Shown piece after piece: positions 13,157 to 52,600 of a DNA stretch of 64,000 nt. Position 1 is the stretch's first letter. Each line of letters starts with the position of its first letter. The DNA lies in assembly GCA_029339195.1 (NCBI GenBank), contig JAPTJF010000064.1, forward strand, positions 62,001-126,000, written 5' to 3'. The notes under the pieces were generated by a model. That model saw nothing but the letters and a program-made list of their open reading frames with translations. It had not been told where the DNA came from and did not search any database. Source of the stretch: Micractinium sp. NFX-FRZ. Its lineage: Eukaryota > Chlorophyta > Trebouxiophyceae > Chlorellales > Chlorellaceae. A program made the translations under genes and the position numbers.

Positions 13157-15435
13157 ATGGGCGGCGGCGGCGGTGGCGGCAGCGTGTATGCAGACTATGT
13201 AGCAGGGGCGATTGCAGGGTCCGCCAACATTGCACTCGGCTTCCCAGGTAGATTTTGGACATAATACGTAGCTTACCTGCGCCATATCAGTGCAGCGCTG
13301 GCAAGGAATGCCATTGCTGTCACGCGCCGCTGCCGACAGGGCTGTGCCGTTGCCGCCAAGCGCCTGCTCTCCCTGCCTGTCCACCTTGCGACACGTGGCT
13401 GCTGCTGCTGCTGCTGCTGCTTTGTTGCTGCAGCGGACACGGTCAAGGTCCGGCTGCAGAACCGGCTCAACCCGTATTCGGGAGCCTGGCACTGCGCCTC
13501 ATCCATCTTCCGTTACGAAGGGGTGCGTGGGTGGGCGTAAGGAGAGCATCGCTGGCCGCATGCAGGGAGGGTGCCAGCTGTGGGTTCAGGCAAAGCATTG
13601 CAGCGCTGGCCTCCCCCACAGCCACCGCATCAACCGCCTCTGGGTGCGCAGGGCAGACCAGGCGTGTGCACCCGCCTGGCCCTGGAGTCCTGCTGTCTGC
13701 TTCTTGCGCCGTGCCAACATAGCTCTGCCCGCCGTCCCCGCCACCGTACCGCAGTTTCGGGCGCTGTACCGCGGCATGAGCCCCCAGCTGGTGGGCGGGG
13801 CGCTGGAGACGGGCGTCAACTACGCAGTGTACCAGGCCATGCTGAGCTGGACGCAAGCTGCCACGTCAGCTGGGGGGCTGGCGCTGCCAGAGGCGGCAGC
13901 GGTGCCGCTGTCTGCGGCCACCGCAGGCTGCGTGCTGTCCGTTGTGCTGAGCCCCGCTGAGATGGTCAAGGTGAGGGGCGGGCTGGGTCTGCAGCCGCTG
14001 TGTGTGGTAGCAGTATGTATTATGAGGCTGCTGTCCAAGGTGGGGGGCGGGCTGGGTCTGCAGCCGTGGTGTTTGGGCTCCCGTTGTCCAAGGCAGCTCA
14101 GAGGCGCAGCTGCTGTTCAAGGTGGGATGAGGTGGGGTGGGGTGTAGCAGGGATGGGGCCCGGCAGGCGTGTGTTGGTGGGCGGGGCTGTGGGTGGGCCG
14201 AAGGGTTGGCAAGGCAGCGGCAGGCGGCGAGAGTCGCAGCTGCGCTGTGGGTTGGCGTGAAGCTGATAGTGCTGTTGTGCAGGTGGGCAGAGCGGCAGGC
14301 AGACTATGCTGGAAGTCAGGGGGGCAGTGCCGGCGCAGGTGCCGAGCCCCGGCAACGCCCCACACTCTCCCTGCCTGCGCTTGCCTCACTGCCAGCCCCC
14401 GGCCTCCTAGAGTTACCAACCACACCCTGCCCCCTGCAGCGGGGCGCCACCAAGCGCTACCACTCCCTTCTCGAGACAGCTGTCTCAACTGCCTCCTTGC
14501 TCACTGCCAGCCCCCTGCCTCCCACTGCCATCACACCCTGCCCCCCCCTGCAGTGCCGACTGCAGCTGGGCGGCACTGAGCGGTACCACTCCTACTCGGG
14601 GCCAATCGACTGCCTGCGGCAGACGGTGCAGCAAGAGGGGCTGCGGGGGCTGACCCGGGGGCTTGGGGGCACGATGGCAAGAGAGATCCCCGGCAATGCA
14701 GTGTGTGAGTGGGGAGGAGGCGGGGGGTGGGGGTTGGTGTCAGCGTGGGGCAGAGGCAGAAGGGTGCTGGCTGCCAGTGTGCGGTTGCGCGTGGCAGGTG
14801 CCTTGCTGGCGTGGTGGTGCAGGGGAACTGTGTGGTGGCGGCTTGCTTCTGGCGGCGCCGCTGGCAGAGCCTGCCCCTCACACCTGCCTCCCTCCCCGCC
14901 TCCCACCCACTGCCCTGCTGCCTGCCTGCCTGCCTGCCGCCTTTTGCACCGACCTGGCCCGCACCACAACCCTGACCCCCACCCCTCCACACACACACGC
15001 ACACACACTTGCAGACTTCAGCACCTACCGCCTGCTGCGCCACTGGCTGCCCGGCAAGGCGCCCGACCCAGCAGGCAGCCCCACAGCCTCCTCGCAGCCC
15101 CCCAGCCTGCTGTCTACCCTTGCCAACGCTGGATCAGCTGTTGTGTGCGGCGGGCTGGCGGGCATGGTGATGTGGGCGGTGGTGCTGCCGCTGGACACTG
15201 CAAAGACACGCATACAGACGGCCTACCCTGGCAGCCCATCTGACGTGGGCGTGCTGCGCCAGCTGCGCTTGATCCACAGAGAAGGTGGGATGGGGGGCCA
15301 GGGTTTGGGATGGGGAGTTGGCGGTTTTGTGGTTTTAAGATTGGGAGAGGATGAGTCATCTGGTGGGGAATTGTGGGGTTTGAGGCGGGGATGCAATCCT
15401 GGTTGTTGAGTGCACACTGCAGCCGCTGCACCCCG

Positions 15436-18854: not shown

Positions 18855-21800
18855 CTAGCCCCCGAGCAGCCCCTGGTGCCGCAGCATGGCCGTCGGATCG
18901 GGATAGTACCCGCCGCCTGCCCTGCACAGGCCGTTGCCGCCGCCTCCGCCGCCGCTGCTACCGCCCCCGCTGCTTCCATCCATGCCGCTGCTGCTTGTGC
19001 TCCCACTGCTGCTGCGTGTGCTCCCGCTGCTGCTGCTGGCGGCCAGCAGGTCTTCCACCATGCAGTGTGCCTCCTTGGCTCCCCCAGGCTCCATCAGCCG
19101 GTGGCGCAGCAGCTCCCCCGCCGTGCGGCTGGTGGGGTCGGCTGCCAGGTGGTCCTGCAGATAAACCACGGAAATGATGAAGGAGTCACTGAGTGGGTGG
19201 GGGGAGGGCCAAAGAAATGGCGGAAGAGCTCGCATGGCTGGCCGGGCCTGCAGCCAAAACAACGTGCCAGGCTTGAACGGAGGGAGGGTGGGAGGTGGGG
19301 GGAGGGGAGGTGGAGGTGGCGGAGGCTGCTTGCCACGCTCGCTGCAAACGAAAGCAGTCGGCCGGCTGCACTTTGCTGCGCTGCAGCACGCACCTCCCAT
19401 ATGCGTGCGGAGAGGCACTGCGCGTAGAGGTAGCTGTAGTATGTGGCGCCGTAGCCCACCAGGTGGGTGAACCTGCACAGGGCAATATATGAGCAGGGGG
19501 GGATGGTATTTGGAAGGAGGGAAACGGGGCAAGGGGATATGAGCAGGGGAGGATGGCATTTTGAAGGAGGGAAACGGGGCAAGGCGCAGGGAGGATGGCC
19601 CTCCAGGTGGGTGAACCTGCGTGGGCGGGGCGGGGTGGGGCGGGGTGGGGCGGGATGGGAATGGGGGTGGGTAGCTGGTAGTGGAACGGGTGGGGGTGGG
19701 GGGCCGCGGCTAGCCCACCAGGAGGGCGACCCTGCGGCGAGGATCAAGGTGGGGGAGGCAGCCCACGGGCGGCAGCAGCGTGCGCTTGTGTCGCCCTTCC
19801 CCCCGCCCCCACCCTGCGAGTGCCCCCTGGCGCAACATTGCATAACGTGAGAACCGTCAGTTGGCAGCACTGGCGCTGTTTGGTCACCTGATGTGCGGAT
19901 GGCACCCCTCAGCGTGGCCCAGCGCGCTGTGCTGGCGCATGATGTCAGCAATCTCACGCTGCGCACGCTGCCCTGTGGGCGGGTCGGGCCCGTGCAGCAG
20001 CTGGTCGATCAGGCAGTACTGGAGCTGCAAAAGAGGGTGGGAGAATGGGAGGGTGAGAGAAGGAGGCCGAATGCCGGGGACGGAAGCTGGGGAGGCATGG
20101 GTGACACAGGGGCAGTGCAGGGGTCGGCTGTACATGCTGCTCTTCGTACTGCACAACCCCCCTGCCATCTCCCTTCCTCCTCCCCACCTGCTGCTGCTGA
20201 TCCAGCGCCACGAAGCGCCGGCGGCTGGCCTCCAGCGCACGCAGCAGCGCGGGCGGCAGGCGCTCCCCGGTGGAGCGGTGGCGGGCAAAGAGGGAGAGGA
20301 CGCGGGGGTCGGAGGCAAACAGCTCGAGGGTGTGGGAGGGCACCTCGACCATGTCGAGGGGCCCACGCGTGCCTGCAGGGGGAGATGTTCAAGGAGGGTG
20401 TACAGGGGAATACACGAGTGTGTGAGCGGTCTGAGGCGAAGAGCTCCAGGGTGTGTGAGGAGACCTCAGGACCATGTCGAGGGACCACGAGCGCCTGCCG
20501 GGGAGTGGGAGGGGCGGTGGCAAGCGAAGGGAGTGGGGATCAGGCTGTGGAAGGTAGCAGTGTCAGAAGAGTTTCTGGTGTGTGAGGGGGCACCACCATG
20601 TGCGGAGGGGGCGGGACACGCGTGCCTGCAGGGAAGGGGGCGGCAAGGGAGGTGGGGGTGGGCGTGCAAAGGGGACCAAGCAGATTGTGGGAGCGGTTTG
20701 AGGCAAACAGCTCCCGGGTGTGGGATTGGAACTCAACCGTATCCAGGCGTGCCTTCAACGAGTGGGAGGGAGGGCGGGAGGATGGGGCAAGGCGGTAGCA
20801 TGGTGGGAGAAGGGTGTGGCCGAGAGAAGTTGTGGTGTTGTGCTGCGCTGCGTTGTGCTGCGCTGTCCCACAGAATGGCGCGCCACACCCCTCAGCTCGG
20901 GATGTGGGCATGCTGCGCTCCACCAACTGGGTGCTGCGCCACCCACCGGACAGGTGCTGGAACTCGGTGCGGCTGAGGAGGGAGTTGAGGGCGTGGCCAA
21001 ACTCGTGAAACAGCATCTCCACCTGCGCAGGCGGAGAGCAGAAGAGGAGGGAATAGGCAAAAAGCAATCTCCAAACTGGTGCAGGTGCGCGGCAGAGGAA
21101 GAAAGAACCCATACTTGTATTGTGAGGGTTTAAACTCTACCCACCCAGCAGAATCCTGTCCTGACGATCAACGTGTATATGTGATCAAGCAAGCTAAACA
21201 GGCACGCAGCAGCACCGGCAGCACGACTTCTCGAGCACACCGCTGCTGCCGCTGCTGACAGTGACGGCAGCCAGCGCTTACCTCGCTCACGGCCAGCCCG
21301 CTGTGCTCCGCCATGTTGGCAACCAGGGCCACCACCGGCGTCTGCAGGCCGGGGGGGCAGGCAGGCAGGAGGACAGAGAGCGTGTGCGTTAGGTGCGTAT
21401 TAGCAGCGGAGGCTGCGCCACACCATGGCACACAAGGCCACCACTGGAGCTAGCCGGCCTCCTGCACACCAGCATAGTCACACCACCCAACCACCCACCT
21501 GGTAGCTCCCGTCGGCCAGGCGGCGACCGCAGCGCAGCGTGAAGTGTGCGGCGGAGGGGAACTTGTGGGGGCGGCGGTACAGGTCGAGGTACACGACACC
21601 TAGGAAGCCATCTGCAGGGGTAGTCGGGGGTGTGTGGCCGGTGGAGAGGGATAGCAACTGAGCATACCACAATCAAGCTGAGCTGGAGATGAGATGGGGG
21701 GCAATTGAGCATGCAGCAAGTAAGATGAGAGGCTAATGGGGTTGGTGGCGCTGCAGCCAGACCACCAGCTGCTGCTGAGCGACAGCAGGCACCAAGCTTG

Positions 21801-24768
21801 GTTCTCGCCTACACTTCCACCGCTCACCCACCCACCCGTGTCGTGCGTTGCCATCAGCTTGCGCACGCCAGGCGCCCAGCCCTCGCCTGCAGCAGAGAGG
21901 GAAAGTAGTTGCAGGCGAGATGCAGGCGGGTGGGAGTCACATCAGTAGTTTGAGCGCTGTTGGGCCCATAACAGCCACTGGTTAACTACGCAGCAATCAA
22001 AGGATCCGGCCAGTGGCAGCCCACCCAGCAAGCAGGCCACATCAGCGAAGCGCACTCCCTCTCCACCACCAGCACAGCATCGGCAGGTGTAGCTTGACAG
22101 CTGCCACACCCACAGCCCCGCCCTGCCTTGCCCTCAACTCCTCCAACATTGCATCCATCTCACTCCCCGCGCACCTCCGCCCTGCCCCTTCCCCTTCCGT
22201 GCCCAACTCGCCCCCGCACCAAGCACCCACCTGCCTCCAGCGGCGCCTCCTGCAGCCGCACCCCCATGCTGCGCTCCAGCAGCGCGCTCAGCCCCTCCAC
22301 AACCCGCTCCAGCTCAAAATACTCGGGCAGGGCGTTGAGCTGCGCGGCATCCGCGCCGCTCTTGGCGGCGGCGCACAGGAACTGCCGGTCCCAGGGCTGC
22401 ACCGGCTGCTCTGCTGAGCTGGCGCTGCTTGCACCGCTGGCACCGCCGCCGCCGCTGCCTGCCAGGTGTAAAGATTTGAGCTGCCTGAGCTCTTGCGCCT
22501 CCTGAGCGCACTTGGGGGCGATGGCGGAGGCAAAGCGCTCTAGGAAGGCGAGGACAGCTGGCGGGCGGGAAGCCAGGGAGAAGCTGTCCAGCTGGTAGGC
22601 GGCGTAGGAGGGGAAGCCCATGAGGGAGGCCACCTCGTGGCGCGCCTGCGAAGCGGCAGGGAGAGGATAAGCTGAATGGGCTTGGTCTTGAATGGGAGCG
22701 GTGCCGGTGAGTGCCAGGCGTGCAGGGTAGGGGAGCACGGGTGCTGCATCAGGGCCCCTCCCATCCGTTCAGAGCTCGCCACCTGCATGACAGTGCCGCA
22801 GGCCATCTGCTTCGCCGCGTACTTCATTTGCAACCCAGCCTACCGCACCCATCACGCCTGTTCCTTCACACCCCCTCCCTCCTGAGTTCTGCCTCAGGCA
22901 GCTACCCCTCCTGGGCTCTTCCATAGAGCTTCCCCTGTTGAAGATCTCCCCCTCTGAAAAACAGTCCCCCTCCTGAGCTGTCACCGCCTCTCAAGCAGCT
23001 CACCTCCACCAGGGCATCCAAAGCCGCCAGGTTGGCCGCTGGCTGGGTGTTGCACGCCTCAAAAGCGGCCCGCCGCAGGCCCTCGTCGCGCGCTGAGCGC
23101 AGCAGCGCGTGCAGGGTGGGTGAGTCGGCGGGCGCGGCAAGCCCTGCCAGGGAGCCGCCGCCGGCGAGGCCGCCAGAGGGGGCTGCCAGGGGGCGGAACT
23201 TCTTCTGCAGGCCCAGGGGCAGCTGCTGCACGGCGCCTGCAGGGGGCGGGGCAGGGCAGGGAGAGTGCATGCATGTGTGTGTGCACAGGCTATTTAGGTG
23301 CATGCTAGAGCGCCAGGCTGCCCAGCTGGTTGGACCAAGCATGCCCTGTGTGACCGCCATCCGCAGCTGCTGCCGGAGCCTCCTGCGCGCTGCCAACGCT
23401 GGGCCTGGCACCCCAACGCTACAACCCCGCAACAGCAGACAACAAGCCCCTGCCGCTTGCATGTTCCCGTCACGCCCCGGGCCCTGTTTCGGGACCTCAC
23501 CGGCACCCACCTGCCAGGTGCCCCTGCAGCTGCAGGCTCCCCAGCTGGCGTGGGTCCACCACGTTCTGGGTGAGCGCCATCCCAACCTGGTGCCCCCGCT
23601 GCACCAGCGCCGCCATGCGGTCCCGCTCCTCCCCCGGCAGGTGAACCCCGTACCGCTCAAAGTCCCGACGCAGCATGCGCCCCACCAGGAGCGCCTCCTC
23701 GCTCCAACCGCCACGACCCCCGGTGGGTGCCAGGGGAGCACTGCCGTAGGCTGTGCTGCTGCTGCCGCTGCTGCCGCCGCTGCTGCTGCTTGCGGCGCGG
23801 CTGCGTGGATCGCCGGTGCTGGCCGCTGCCGCAGCTGCGTCGTGCTGCTCCAGCGAGTGTACCAGGGCAGTGTAGATACCGTAGTGGGTGTTGAGCTGCT
23901 GCACATACCCGCTCAGCTCGATGCACACCTGAGGACGGGTGGGCGGGGGCAGGGAGCGTAAACAAGAGCGCTTCAATCACACAAATGCGCAGCTTCCCAC
24001 CCACGCTACACTGCAGCCCCTGCCCAGGCTGCGGCCAGGTTCCTCCCCTTGCCGGCACTCTCCCTTCTTATACAGGCGTGCCCCGCCCTGCAGGCTCCGT
24101 CTCAGCCCCCCACTCGCCTGCTGCGCCTGCTGCCGCCATTCAGGGTCGTCATGCACGTTGCGGCAGAACTCGGCGGCATCCAGCACTTGGCACAGCTGCA
24201 GGGGGGCCATGGGGGTGTGCTCAGAAGGGGGTCGCCTGCTGCAAGCTTGGGTGCTTGCAGGGGACTTGGGAGATATGTGCTCAAAAGCAGGCTGGGTTGG
24301 GTGCACACTTGCAGAAAGAACTCGGCTGCACCCAGCACTCGGCATAGCTGCAGGGGACCGTGTGCACGGTACGCCCTTGCTTCTACAAGTAGATGTGGAG
24401 CCGATATTTTCCTCAAAACTGTTCGCAGGAATGAGGGGCGCTGGCGAGCGGCACGCTGTGGGTGTTCCGGGCGGCAGCTGGTTGCCCTGCAGCCCACAAC
24501 GACGCTTCCCGCACACAGCAACCCTCATACGCACCCCTGCACTTGCTGACTGCCTTAGAAAGGGCCTCACCGTGTCGGAGATGTCGTCCAAGAGGCGCAC
24601 CACCGCCACCGTCGGCGGCGCCTGCACCACCTCCCCCACCAGCCCCTGGCACTGGGTGACGGCGTCGCGGGCCAGGGTTTGCCAGTCGCTTGGGCGGCTG
24701 AGACCTGGTATGCCCGCGAACCCCGCCCGCCCGGGGGACAGCCAGGACGAGAGGCGGCGAATTGACAT
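18855..24768 (-). CDS. MIP: Mitochondrial intermediate peptidase (M3 zinc metallopeptidase)
   Basis: Removes an octapeptide from imported matrix proteins after the first presequence cut. Thirteen exons join in phase to 780 residues: 24571-24768, 24118-24195, 23511-23928, 23004-23236, 22231-22645, 21836-21886, 21499-21611, 21282-21341, 20947-21022, 20188-20372, 19888-20024, 19394-19472, 18855-19154. The zinc site is HEFGH (20993-21007), with the third ligand in the next exon (DMVEVPS). The family segments HLVGYGATYYSYL and the N-terminal DDISDTLCQVLDAAEF support MIP over other M3 enzymes. MSIRRLSSWLS at the start looks like a matrix presequence, though an upstream in-frame Met exists. Intron 2 uses a GC donor (GCGAGT). 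Ser/Gly-rich inserts lie near residue 150 and the C-terminus. Confidence 0.92.
19487..19590. repeat. Tandem duplication in MIP intron
   Basis: Two adjacent copies of about 50 bases, each containing GAAGGAGGGAAACGGGGCAA, in the intron 19473-19887. Confidence 0.8.
19597..19738 (-). repeat. Two decayed copies of the MIP exon-12 acceptor edge
   Basis: The true exon edge (plus strand, about 19457-19477) reads CCACCAGGTGGGTGAACCTG. Copies occur at 19597-19620 (CTCCAGGTGGGTGAACCTGC) and 19711-19735 (CCCACCAGGAGGGCGACCCTG). Translated, the first gives RFTHLEG beside the real RFTHLVG. Confidence 0.65.
20421..20760 (-). repeat. Three decayed copies of the MIP exon that carries a zinc ligand
   Basis: The real exon 20188-20372 begins TRGPLDMVEVPSHTLELFAS. 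The intron upstream of it holds three imperfect copies, at about 20421-20500 (PEVSSHTLELFASD), 20560-20632 (HMVVPPHTPETLL) and 20690-20760 (LDTVEFQSHTRELFASN). Each retains pieces of the CTGCAG-GCACGCG acceptor edge. Frames are shifted by small indels, so none can replace the exon unaltered. Confidence 0.8.
24311..24354 (-). repeat. Decayed copy of MIP exon 2
   Basis: On the minus strand CTGCAG then CTATGCCGAGTGCTGGGTGC encodes LCRVLGAAEFFLQV, beside real exon 2 (LCQVLDAAEFCRNV, 24118-24195). It lies in the intron just upstream of that exon and keeps the acceptor AG. Confidence 0.75.
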
Positions 24769-49691: not shown

Positions 49692-52600
49692 ATGGCGACC
49701 CTGCGCAGCGTGGCTTGCGCCAAACCTACCCTGGTGTGCTCCCGGCGCGGATCCTGCGCCTTTGTTGTCAATTCAGCGCTTCGGCTGCCCCAGAAACTCC
49801 CGGCAGCCGAGTGTGCTGCCCAGTTGCACCGCCGCCACCGCCGCCAGCTGGGCGCCGCTGCTGCCGCCCGATCAGTTGCAGCCGCTGCCAGCGGTGCGTC
49901 AGCAGCCACTGCGGCCACCAGTTCCGGGGCTGGCGCTGCAGCCACCCAGCTTCCGCGCTCTCCCGGAGCCATGGTGGACCAGGCAGCGGCGGCGGTGCAG
50001 GCGGGGCTGGATGCCGGGCGGACGCGTCAGATGATCACACTGCTGCTGCCAGTCAATGAGAAGGAGGCGGGTGAGTGCCCCCTCAGCTGACAGCACCTCT
50101 GGCAGCACCTGTTTGAACGGGATACTGCTGCCTGCCAGCAAAGCACCCACCGCTGCCGCTGCTGCTGCTCACGGCTTTGCCGCTGCTGTGCGCTCACTTC
50201 TCCTCGACCGCCCGCTCTTGGCCACTCCTGCTCCCCCCCGCTCCCACCACACCTCTCCTGGATACCTGGGTTCCCCTCCCCTCTCCCCTCCCCCTGCAGA
50301 CTTCAACAACACAGAGCCCCTGGACTACCCCTGCAGCTTGCAGAAGGTGGGCCATCTGCCAGCACTGTGAAGCACATGCCCGCAAGCGGGAGGGCGCCGC
50401 CGGCGCTGCCTACCTGCCCCTGCATCCTGGCAGCCGCGCGCCTCCTGTCCACCGCTCACTTCCCCCTGTCCCCGCCCTCATGGCACAGCAAGCTCCCTGC
50501 CCCCTCCCATCATACAGGCCTGCCTCCTCACTAACTTCTTGTCCCAGGCAGCGCCGGAATGACTGACTACACCTCTCCAAGGTTTCACCGTCTGCTTCAT
50601 CCACTGAATGGCCAAACTTTTTTCTGCAATGTTCCACCGTCTGCTGCATCCTCTGGCCCGCCCCGCCCAGCAGGAGTTCGACACCGCATGCGCCCTCACC
50701 AAGTCGCTCATGCAGCGCCTGCTGGGAGCGGGCACGGAGATCAAGGCCAAACGGATCGATGACGGCGGGGTGGAGGGCGAACCCTGCGGGGGTGAGGCGC
50801 CGCCTGCTGCTGCCGCCACTGCTGCTCCTGTCGATGGTGCTCCAGAAATGTGCTGCCGCCAACTCTTCTGGCAGTGGCGTCCAAACACATTGTTGCCAAA
50901 TTTACGCTGTCTTCAGCTGGGTGGTGCCTGCCCGCCCCCCTCCCTACTGCTGTGCTGTACGACAAAGCTGGTCCACCTCACCCGGCTGCGCTCCACTCCC
51001 CACCTGACCGCCTGAAGCAGCAGCTGCTGCGGCTGTTCAACCCCTGCTCCCACCCGACTTTCCTTTGCAGTCCTGTTTGATGGTGCCAGGCCCTTTGCCG
51101 TCGACTGCCTCACATCCGACCGCCTGCCTCGCATCCGACCGCCTGAAGCAGCTGCAGTCCCCCCCCTCCCCCCCCCGGCCCTCAAATCTCCTTTGTGCAG
51201 TGCTGTTTGACGAGTCCAGGTCATTCCTTGCCGTCGTCTACCCCACCTCCGACCGCCTGAAGCAGCTGCAGTCGTATGCCAAGGAGGAGGGGCGGACGCT
51301 GCTGATTGTGAACCCGCAGTGGAACAATGCGGGCCAGGTGGGGCAGCAGGGGCAGCGGGAGGCAGCGGGGGAAATAGGGGATGGGCTTCCTCCTCTCATG
51401 TGGTTTGCTGTGCGGTGGGTTAGATGGGCAGGGAGGCAGAGCGGCGGTGCGGAACACGTTCAACTCCCGGTCGGGCCCGCCTGGCGCCAGCCCGCCTCCG
51501 CCTGCTGCTTCCGACGCACCGGCTGCTTCCCAAAGTAGTGCCATGGTGGTGTGCCCCACGTTGTCTACAGTGCGCCCTTGCCTCCTCTGCGGGTCACCCG
51601 AGGCGCTGGGCCTGCCCCCTCCCGCCTCTAATCCACGGCTTCCCCCTTGCCCCCTCCCCAGGTCATTTCTGACTTTGGGTTTGGCCCCTGGCGCAAGGCC
51701 GCCGACGACTTCCTGGCGACATTCGAGCCTAGCTACTGCCTCAAGGAGAAGCGCATCGGCAGCCCGGGTGAGTGGGTTGCGGCGTTCTGGATCTCCTTGA
51801 ACCGCGTCTCCTGTTACACTGGCCAACCTGGCATGGCTCAAGCTACTCTTTCACACTCTCTTCACCGGGGAGCGGCACGGTGGGTCAGCCGCTTGAGCAC
51901 AGCTGCCGCCTGAAAGACAAGTGGATTGGCAGCCCAGGTAAGTGGCTTGCAACAGGAGAAGCTCACCGGCAGCCCGGGTGAGGCGGCGGTACAGCATGGC
52001 ATGTACTGCAAGGTGTTGGTCGTGAAACAGGGCCCTTATTCATCACACTGTGCTATGTGCCACCCCAGCACCCATCCACCCGTCCCTGCCCTCCGGCATG
52101 CACGCTGTGCCTGGCGGCAACGCACGCCCTCGCACCCGCCCACCTCCCCTCTTGCCCACTCGGTGCCCACTCAATCCTGAGCCACCCGCCCCCGCATGCG
52201 CAGGCACTGTTGACGCGGCCACCGGCACGCGCTTTGTGTCCGGCGGCGTGATCCGCCTGCTGAGGCGGTACCCCGGGCAGTACGAGGCTCATGCCATGGC
52301 GCCCAACGGCAGCAGCCAGCTGCTGGAGACGGCAGAGGCGGAGCCCGGGTACAAGGTGGGTGCTGGCCTGTGGTAGCGCACAGAGTGGCTGGAAGCACAG
52401 AGTGGCTGGGGTATGTGCTGCGTGTGGGATGGAAGCGCTGCATGCAGCCCGCATCGCTCAGCCCTGCCCACCCGCTGGCCGCTTTGTCTTCACGGATTCG
52501 AGGGAGGCGGCAGAGGTGGAGCCCTGCCTACAAGGTGCAATGTGGCATGGTGCCGAGTGGAGACGCAGCCTGGCTGGTGGCACAGATGCTGTGGGCGTCT

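Follow-up and report, generated by a model that had tools for sequence, protein, structure and literature searches.

Probable intron lengthening by local tandem duplication across exon-intron junctions in the green alga Micractinium sp. NFX-FRZ

Local tandem duplication is treated, in the titles and abstract openings that we surveyed (few of them from subscription papers), mainly as a source of new introns and exons, and we found described there neither an intron-lengthening role nor, specifically, junction-spanning duplication that lengthens green-algal introns. In the potato RdRp gene (PGSC0003DMG402000361), as outlined in PMC4974935, a tandem duplication over an intron-exon boundary made a new intron: the duplicate combined an intron's 3' part with the 5' part of the exon that follows, and the acceptor of the copy was activated together with a cryptic donor. 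Intron creation by exonic duplication, as summarized in PMC3443670 and, for Drosophila, in PMC2891723, is short and local and preserves the protein through splice-site choice, with its source lying within an exon. Tandem and mutually exclusive exons are found by exon-to-gene alignment as exon homologues in the introns of their own gene, with the emphasis in PMC9013439 on duplicates that are spliced. Introners, as outlined in PMC9860276, are mobile families inserted in many genes, which change intron content on a large scale and count green algae among their hosts.

Here, we compare these systems with intron 9 of a gene for a predicted mitochondrial intermediate peptidase (MIP), which lies in a 64,000-nucleotide stretch of Micractinium sp. 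NFX-FRZ DNA (the window) and contains three partial copies of the 5' edge of exon 10. As in potato RdRp, the repeated unit joins the 3' part of an intron to the 5' part of the next exon; unlike in potato RdRp, a new intron is unsupported, and the copy appears to have been absorbed into the old one. As in exonic duplication, the event would be short and local and would preserve the protein through splice-site choice, whereas its source spans an existing junction and the intron is lengthened rather than created. As with tandem exons, exon homologues sit in the gene's own intron, but they are partial, frame-broken edges: intron 9 contains no complete, open, spliceable second exon, the copies reaching about 66 of 185 nt and carrying indels and early stops. 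In contrast to introners, every copy matches its own exon, and a search of the 66-Mb genome with a 340-bp stretch of intron 9, leaving out very common words, recovered the query and the edge of exon 10 (82% identity, E 1.2e-11) and nothing else, rather than many near-identical introns across genes. On our best reading, the type of event is known, its outcome is little described, and new machinery is unnecessary. Judging from sequence comparison, we consider it very probable that introns throughout the sampled genome have grown by local, junction-spanning tandem duplication, with the inner copies decaying.

The MIP gene has 13 exons, on which hand splicing and an HMM gene finder (written by us and trained on 264 kb of this genome) concur, except for 1-2 bases at the edges of exons 6 and 7, which are given as in the HMM model. 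The exon numbering of the initial annotation was correct, with HEFGH in exon 9 and VEVPSHTLELFAS in exon 10. Like M3 peptidases, the gene product combines a Peptidase_M3 domain and an HExxH site with a downstream Glu motif; exons 9-10 match Pfam PF01432 (Peptidase_M3; E 1.1e-21) as well as solved M3 peptidases (best 5l43; E 6.6e-14). We take the Glu of VEVPS to be the third zinc ligand (cf. thimet oligopeptidase Glu502). The most similar protein, 75% identical along the full query, comes from Micractinium sp. CCAP 211/92, ahead of those of Chlorella vulgaris and C. sorokiniana, and because these are its closest proteins, the product is probably a mitochondrial intermediate peptidase. One intron of this gene (24118-24195) has the donor CAG|GCGAGT and is a GC-AG intron, with protein continuity backing the GC donor; such introns are seemingly common, with 32 of 363 donors in the HMM models, a count that the HMM possibly inflates.

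Table 1. Coordinates, within the window, of the MIP gene, its exon-edge copies, and echo-bearing introns of other window genes.
Feature	Position	Strand	Basis
Mitochondrial intermediate peptidase gene (predicted; M3 peptidase), 13 exons	18855..24768	-	hand splicing and HMM, Pfam, homologues
Exon 9, HEFGH zinc site, end ...CTGTCCG|GTGGGTG, phase 1	20947..21022	-	hand splicing and HMM
Exon 10 (VEVPSHTLELFAS), 185 nt; copies derive from its first ~66 nt	20188..20372	-	splicing, alignment
Intron 9, 574 bp, phase 1, with three copies inside	20373..20946	-	HMM, exon-edge test
Copy A (exon-10 5' edge), score 40, with acceptor GCAG| and frame-breaking indels	20428..20494	-	alignment
Copy B, acceptor TGCAG| kept, score 22, most decayed	20553..20625	-	alignment
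Copy C, weak acceptor GAAG| kept, score 30	20695..20752	-	alignment; junction position read from sequence
Exon 2 acceptor-edge copy in MIP intron 1 (source 24165-24204, 90%)	24317..24356	-	alignment
Exon 12 acceptor-edge copy in MIP intron 11 (source 19452-19476, 92%)	19596..19620	-	alignment
Second exon 12 acceptor-edge copy in MIP intron 11 (88%)	19711..19735	-	alignment
DUF1995 gene intron with acceptor-edge copy of downstream exon (z 9.2); two copies at lenient threshold	50792..51200	+	exon-edge test
Intron of the same DUF1995 gene with donor-edge copy of upstream exon (z 6.9)	51768..52203	+	exon-edge test
Mitochondrial carrier gene intron with acceptor-edge copy (z 7.4)	14122..14553	+	exon-edge test

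The initial annotation had described three imperfect copies of exon 10 in intron 9; the number is right, but each copy holds only the first ~66 of the 185 nt together with the acceptor. We scored them by aligning the opening 75 nt of exon 10 locally with the gene-strand sequence of intron 9. Among 1000 dinucleotide shuffles of intron 9, the best scores had a mean of 13.7 (sd 1.9) and a maximum of 22; copies A and C are far past chance, and copy B, which by itself equals the shuffle extreme, is in register with A and C. The copies are spaced at 122, 131, and 127 bp. As had been noted at the outset, they retain parts of the acceptor edge and have lost the frame: AG|G is present at the copied junction in all three, and so are frame-breaking indels. 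Splicing into copy A would lead to a stop after 9 codons and into copy B after 28; for copy C, whose aligned span is 20695-20764, splicing at the AG|GCACGCC junction read from the sequence at 20752 would lead to a stop after six codons (EGTPGYG, then stop), and placing the junction instead at 20765 would give a stop after 3. The self-alignment proposed as a check returned a significant match within the gene (20508-20830 with 20269-20561; 328 columns, 61.6% identity, E 3.6e-17), and in the exon-edge test described below intron 9 was the top acceptor case of the 339 tested (z 14.1). Its own flank scores are modest (8-10 with the exon's own flank, 13-15 between copies).

Among 36 homologous proteins examined, 28 span the exon 9/10 site and cross it directly, passing from a conserved GTR to a single VEVPS-like motif (a variant of it in 2 of the 28); a second copy of the motif occurs in none of the 28, and an extra exon between exons 9 and 10 is unsupported by them. 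The remaining proteins are P0019, P0021, P0022, P0024, P0028, and P0036, in which the site is uncovered, P0029, from which the stretch is absent, and P0034 (ena), which reads otherwise: after exon 9 it continues HLSGGWADGW..., resembling read-through of the intron 9 donor and possibly a gene-model error.

The order of the duplications in intron 9 can be read in more than one way. Alignments of the longer units (scores C-A 40, B-A 30, C-B 20, and 64 for block C-B with block A-exon, over stretches of unequal length) hint that one unit was duplicated first and two units together afterwards. This hint is unbacked by the exon-like 68 nt, which score 37 for exon-A, 17 for exon-C, 16 for exon-B, 14 for A-B, 11 for A-C, and -7 for B-C, copy C being closer to the exon than to A. 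Three single-unit steps would also be compatible with intron 9.

For all predicted introns, we took 60 nt of exon from either side, the start of the downstream exon and the end of the upstream one, aligned each to the intron, and expressed its score as z relative to 60 length-matched pieces of other genes' introns, calling z>3 an echo; apart from the MIP gene, the gene models are our own HMM predictions. With edges shorter than 30 nt dropped, 363 introns gave 339 acceptor and 332 donor tests. Echoes are present in 44 of the 363 introns (about 12%) and in 22 of 59 genes, with 10/79 introns in the window and 34/284 elsewhere. Acceptor edges echo in their own upstream intron in 24/339 tests and donor edges in their own downstream intron in 23/332, whereas the wrong-side controls gave 4/285 (acceptor edge with downstream intron; Fisher p 7e-4) and 2/285 (donor edge with upstream intron; p 5e-5). 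Further controls, for acceptor and donor edges respectively, gave 0/339 and 1/332 with the reverse complement, 1/339 and 1/332 with another gene's intron, and 1/333 and 0/327 with another intron of the same gene. A hold-out of 50 kb, taken from three further contigs and analysed with the frozen model, had 74 introns and yielded 64 tests for each edge; echoes were found at 4/64 acceptors, 6/64 donors, and 0/128 reversed edges, or in 9/74 introns.

Since copies of donor edges are as frequent as those of acceptor edges, the pattern is special neither to acceptors nor to exon 10, and we rejected an acceptor-only mechanism, which the repeats first seen in the MIP gene, all of them acceptor edges, had suggested. 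Recurrence in other genes of the window had been claimed from the start and is borne out by 4 of its 13 genes, as well as by the other contigs and the hold-out. Within the MIP gene, a further repeat of the exon 8 edge (21426-21459) reaches a z of only 2.3. Outside the window, an intron that parallels intron 9 (C64:8034-8538, in the gene C64:7487-9802 of L003; z 8.8) holds up to four copies of the edge of its downstream exon at a lenient threshold. Among the top ten echo genes with a complete start, the MIP gene excluded, six match Pfam families above cut-off (Not3, ABC1, DUF1995, Mpv17, mitochondrial carrier, and Rad51), one falls just under it, and three, including the strongest donor case (L017), have no family.

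The copies lie in direct orientation at the same locus as their source, on the grounds of the reverse-complement edge tests, the distance-from-junction test, and a BLAST-based count of 50 direct and 3 inverted repeats (summed) at 75-600 bp spacing, a count that is blind to spacings below about 50 bp. BLAST culling hides repeats that are this closely spaced. Most copies also reach right up to the splice junction: 22 of 24 acceptor copies start within 5 nt of it, and among donor copies 17 of 23 end that close. With edges shorter than 40 nt dropped, the signal declines over successive 40-nt steps into the exon, from 24/328 to 4/247, 2/147, and 0/84 for acceptors and from 27/321 to 2/241, 0/144, and 0/83 for donors. 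The spacing of 57 copies has a median of 113 bp (IQR 93-132), with 45 of them at 75-160 bp, and shows no reading-frame preference (remainders of three 17, 20, and 20), although later indels blur this count. Tandem matches spaced by less than 60 bp number 32 inside introns and 3 across junctions (summed), a rarity at junctions that is expected, because the unit needs a working intron tail and enough visible exon.

On the intron side, ungapped identity past the splice consensus is 0.31-0.42, compared with 0.26-0.29 at random positions, and these low values first suggested an intron-less source. This suggestion is countered by gapped alignment, in which the flank of a copy on average matches that of its own junction better than the flanks of other copies do (9.8 vs 6.2 for 22 acceptors; 8.7 vs 3.8 for 14 donors), exceeding all 20000 permutations of the anchored test for acceptors and donors alike. 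The test drops copies that are more than 5 nt off the junction or short-flanked, which reduces 24 acceptors to 22 and 23 donors to 14, and the match is an average effect, with mean ranks of 0.68 and 0.73 among other copies' flanks and several own scores of 0-3. In our view, what was copied is genomic DNA spanning the junction.

Once made, the copies decay. Among 63 gaps in 47 copies, 57 are frame-breaking. Relative to the exon, codon positions 1 and 2 have diverged by 16.4%, and position 3, at 19.8%, is only 1.2 times as high; roughly a twofold ratio would be expected of an exon that drifts, and the shortfall may stem from strong codon bias. AG is kept in 16 of 23 acceptor copies, which agrees with the 0.70 predicted by our arithmetic, (1-0.164) squared, and 10 of 19 donor copies retain GT or GC, somewhat under the same neutral expectation, giving no clear sign of either excess retention or purging of the copied splice dinucleotides. 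In the sampled copies, frame, codon-position, and AG/GT counts likewise give no clear sign of retention as coding sequence, and we infer that selection does not favour the copies. Introns with an echo have a mean length of 360 bp, compared with 243 bp for the others (Mann-Whitney p 3.8e-9), and of 314 bp compared with 218 bp in the hold-out. The excess, 118 bp in the main sample, is about one unit in both, although longer introns might catch more duplications, so that length could be a cause rather than an effect. Together, direct orientation, placement in the own intron, junction position, flanks, near-neutral splice-site loss, and length support the earlier idea of tandem exon-edge duplication followed by decay, and the suggestion that this is a general mode of intron growth holds up for this genome, the hold-out behaving like the main sample.

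We propose that intron 9 would have grown through two or three local tandem duplications of DNA, each of a unit of ~120-130 bp that runs from the C-rich intron tail through the acceptor and stops ~66 nt into exon 10. A duplication across an acceptor would not disturb the 3' end, where about 55 nt of intron tail and the acceptor still lead into the original exon; with the outermost acceptor still in use, the protein would be unchanged, and the inner copy would be stranded in the intron and decay. Duplication across a donor would be the mirror image. With units mostly of 75-160 bp, introns would ratchet longer by about one unit per event, and slippage, template switching, or end joining is the presumed mechanism at the DNA level. 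Sole use of the outermost splice site is an assumption, because the copied acceptors score well in our acceptor matrix: the real site scores 9.63, copy B 10.29, copy A 6.90, and copy C 2.79, where predicted sites have a median of 6.5 and a 5th percentile of 2.7. The acceptors of B (20625) and A (20494) are thus candidate decoy sites that could lead to early stops.

The same features bear on several other readings. That copies arise preferentially at junctions, because splicing or transcription (through R-loops, nucleosome edges, or cDNA) favours ~115-bp events at exon-intron borders, is unlikely. It would account for the narrow copy spacing, for the match counts at 90-180 bp spacing (summed: 28 from exon edge to intron, 7 intron-intron, and 4 intergenic), and for the echo rate, which is 24/328 at acceptors compared with 5/159 at points chosen at random within introns and 0/192 at intergenic ones; these intergenic controls are regions left uncalled by the HMM, are small in number, and may include missed genes. 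Yet the junction rate differs from the random intronic rate by odds of only 2.4 (p 0.10), exon conservation lengthens the visibility of a copy, perhaps twofold by our estimate, and the flank match argues against spliced cDNA as a source. Uniform local tandem duplication, together with the longer visibility of the conserved exon half, suffices as a background, and we make no claim for a junction-targeted process for that reason. We regard it as distinctly improbable that the copies are alternative or mutually exclusive exons, or a regulatory poison acceptor, that are partly spliced and tune or diversify the enzyme. The AG kept in all three intron 9 copies, the acceptor of copy B outscoring the real one, and the early stop that each copy would introduce, as a poison site would, are what such a function predicts, but the copies include neither the remainder of exon 10 nor its donor, and the frame is broken in each of them; in the sample, most gaps break frame and the loss of AG is about neutral, and the homologous proteins spanning the site have no second motif.

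An introner or another mobile element family having shaped the intron is a still more remote prospect: introners are found mainly in fast-evolving lineages, green algae being an example (PMC9860276), but the genome search with the intron 9 stretch, very common words left out, returned besides the stretch only the adjoining exon edge, and the sampled copies, too, belong to the exon they adjoin. Chance similarity, or low-complexity C-rich sequence, is hardly credible as an explanation. The introns are indeed C-rich, and at 80% identity over 30 nt, where 942 of 74700 exonic nt match their own introns, 460 nt match the reverse complement of those introns and 186 another gene's introns; in intron 9, however, scores of 40 and 30 exceed anything in the shuffles, and in the z-score test the reverse-complement and swapped-intron controls are near zero. 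With the same 80% identity, exonic nucleotides that have a homologue amount to 0.08% in fly and 0.06% in worm (PMC9013439), and we discarded an excess over these values as an argument, the 1.26% found here standing beside 0.62% for reversed introns and 0.25% for another gene's, and the methods differing.

If introns do lengthen by junction-spanning duplication and decay, a steady supply of duplicated splice sites is predicted. A bolder version, in which such duplication is the main engine of intron lengthening in this algal lineage, fast enough to be still visible in about one intron in eight, and the duplicated sites serve temporarily as decoys that make nonproductive transcripts and tune expression, strikes us as doubtful. 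Conserved exons provide a fixed reference by which old duplications can be recognized after other sequence has decayed, and the rate, unit size, and decay of intron growth are therefore measurable from one genome. For annotators, homology searches would report false partial exons in echo-bearing introns. As a separate observation, MIP intron 11 carries, at 19487-19584 and near the older pair of exon-12 edge copies, a tandem duplication of 50 bp that is young (two copies, 93% match).
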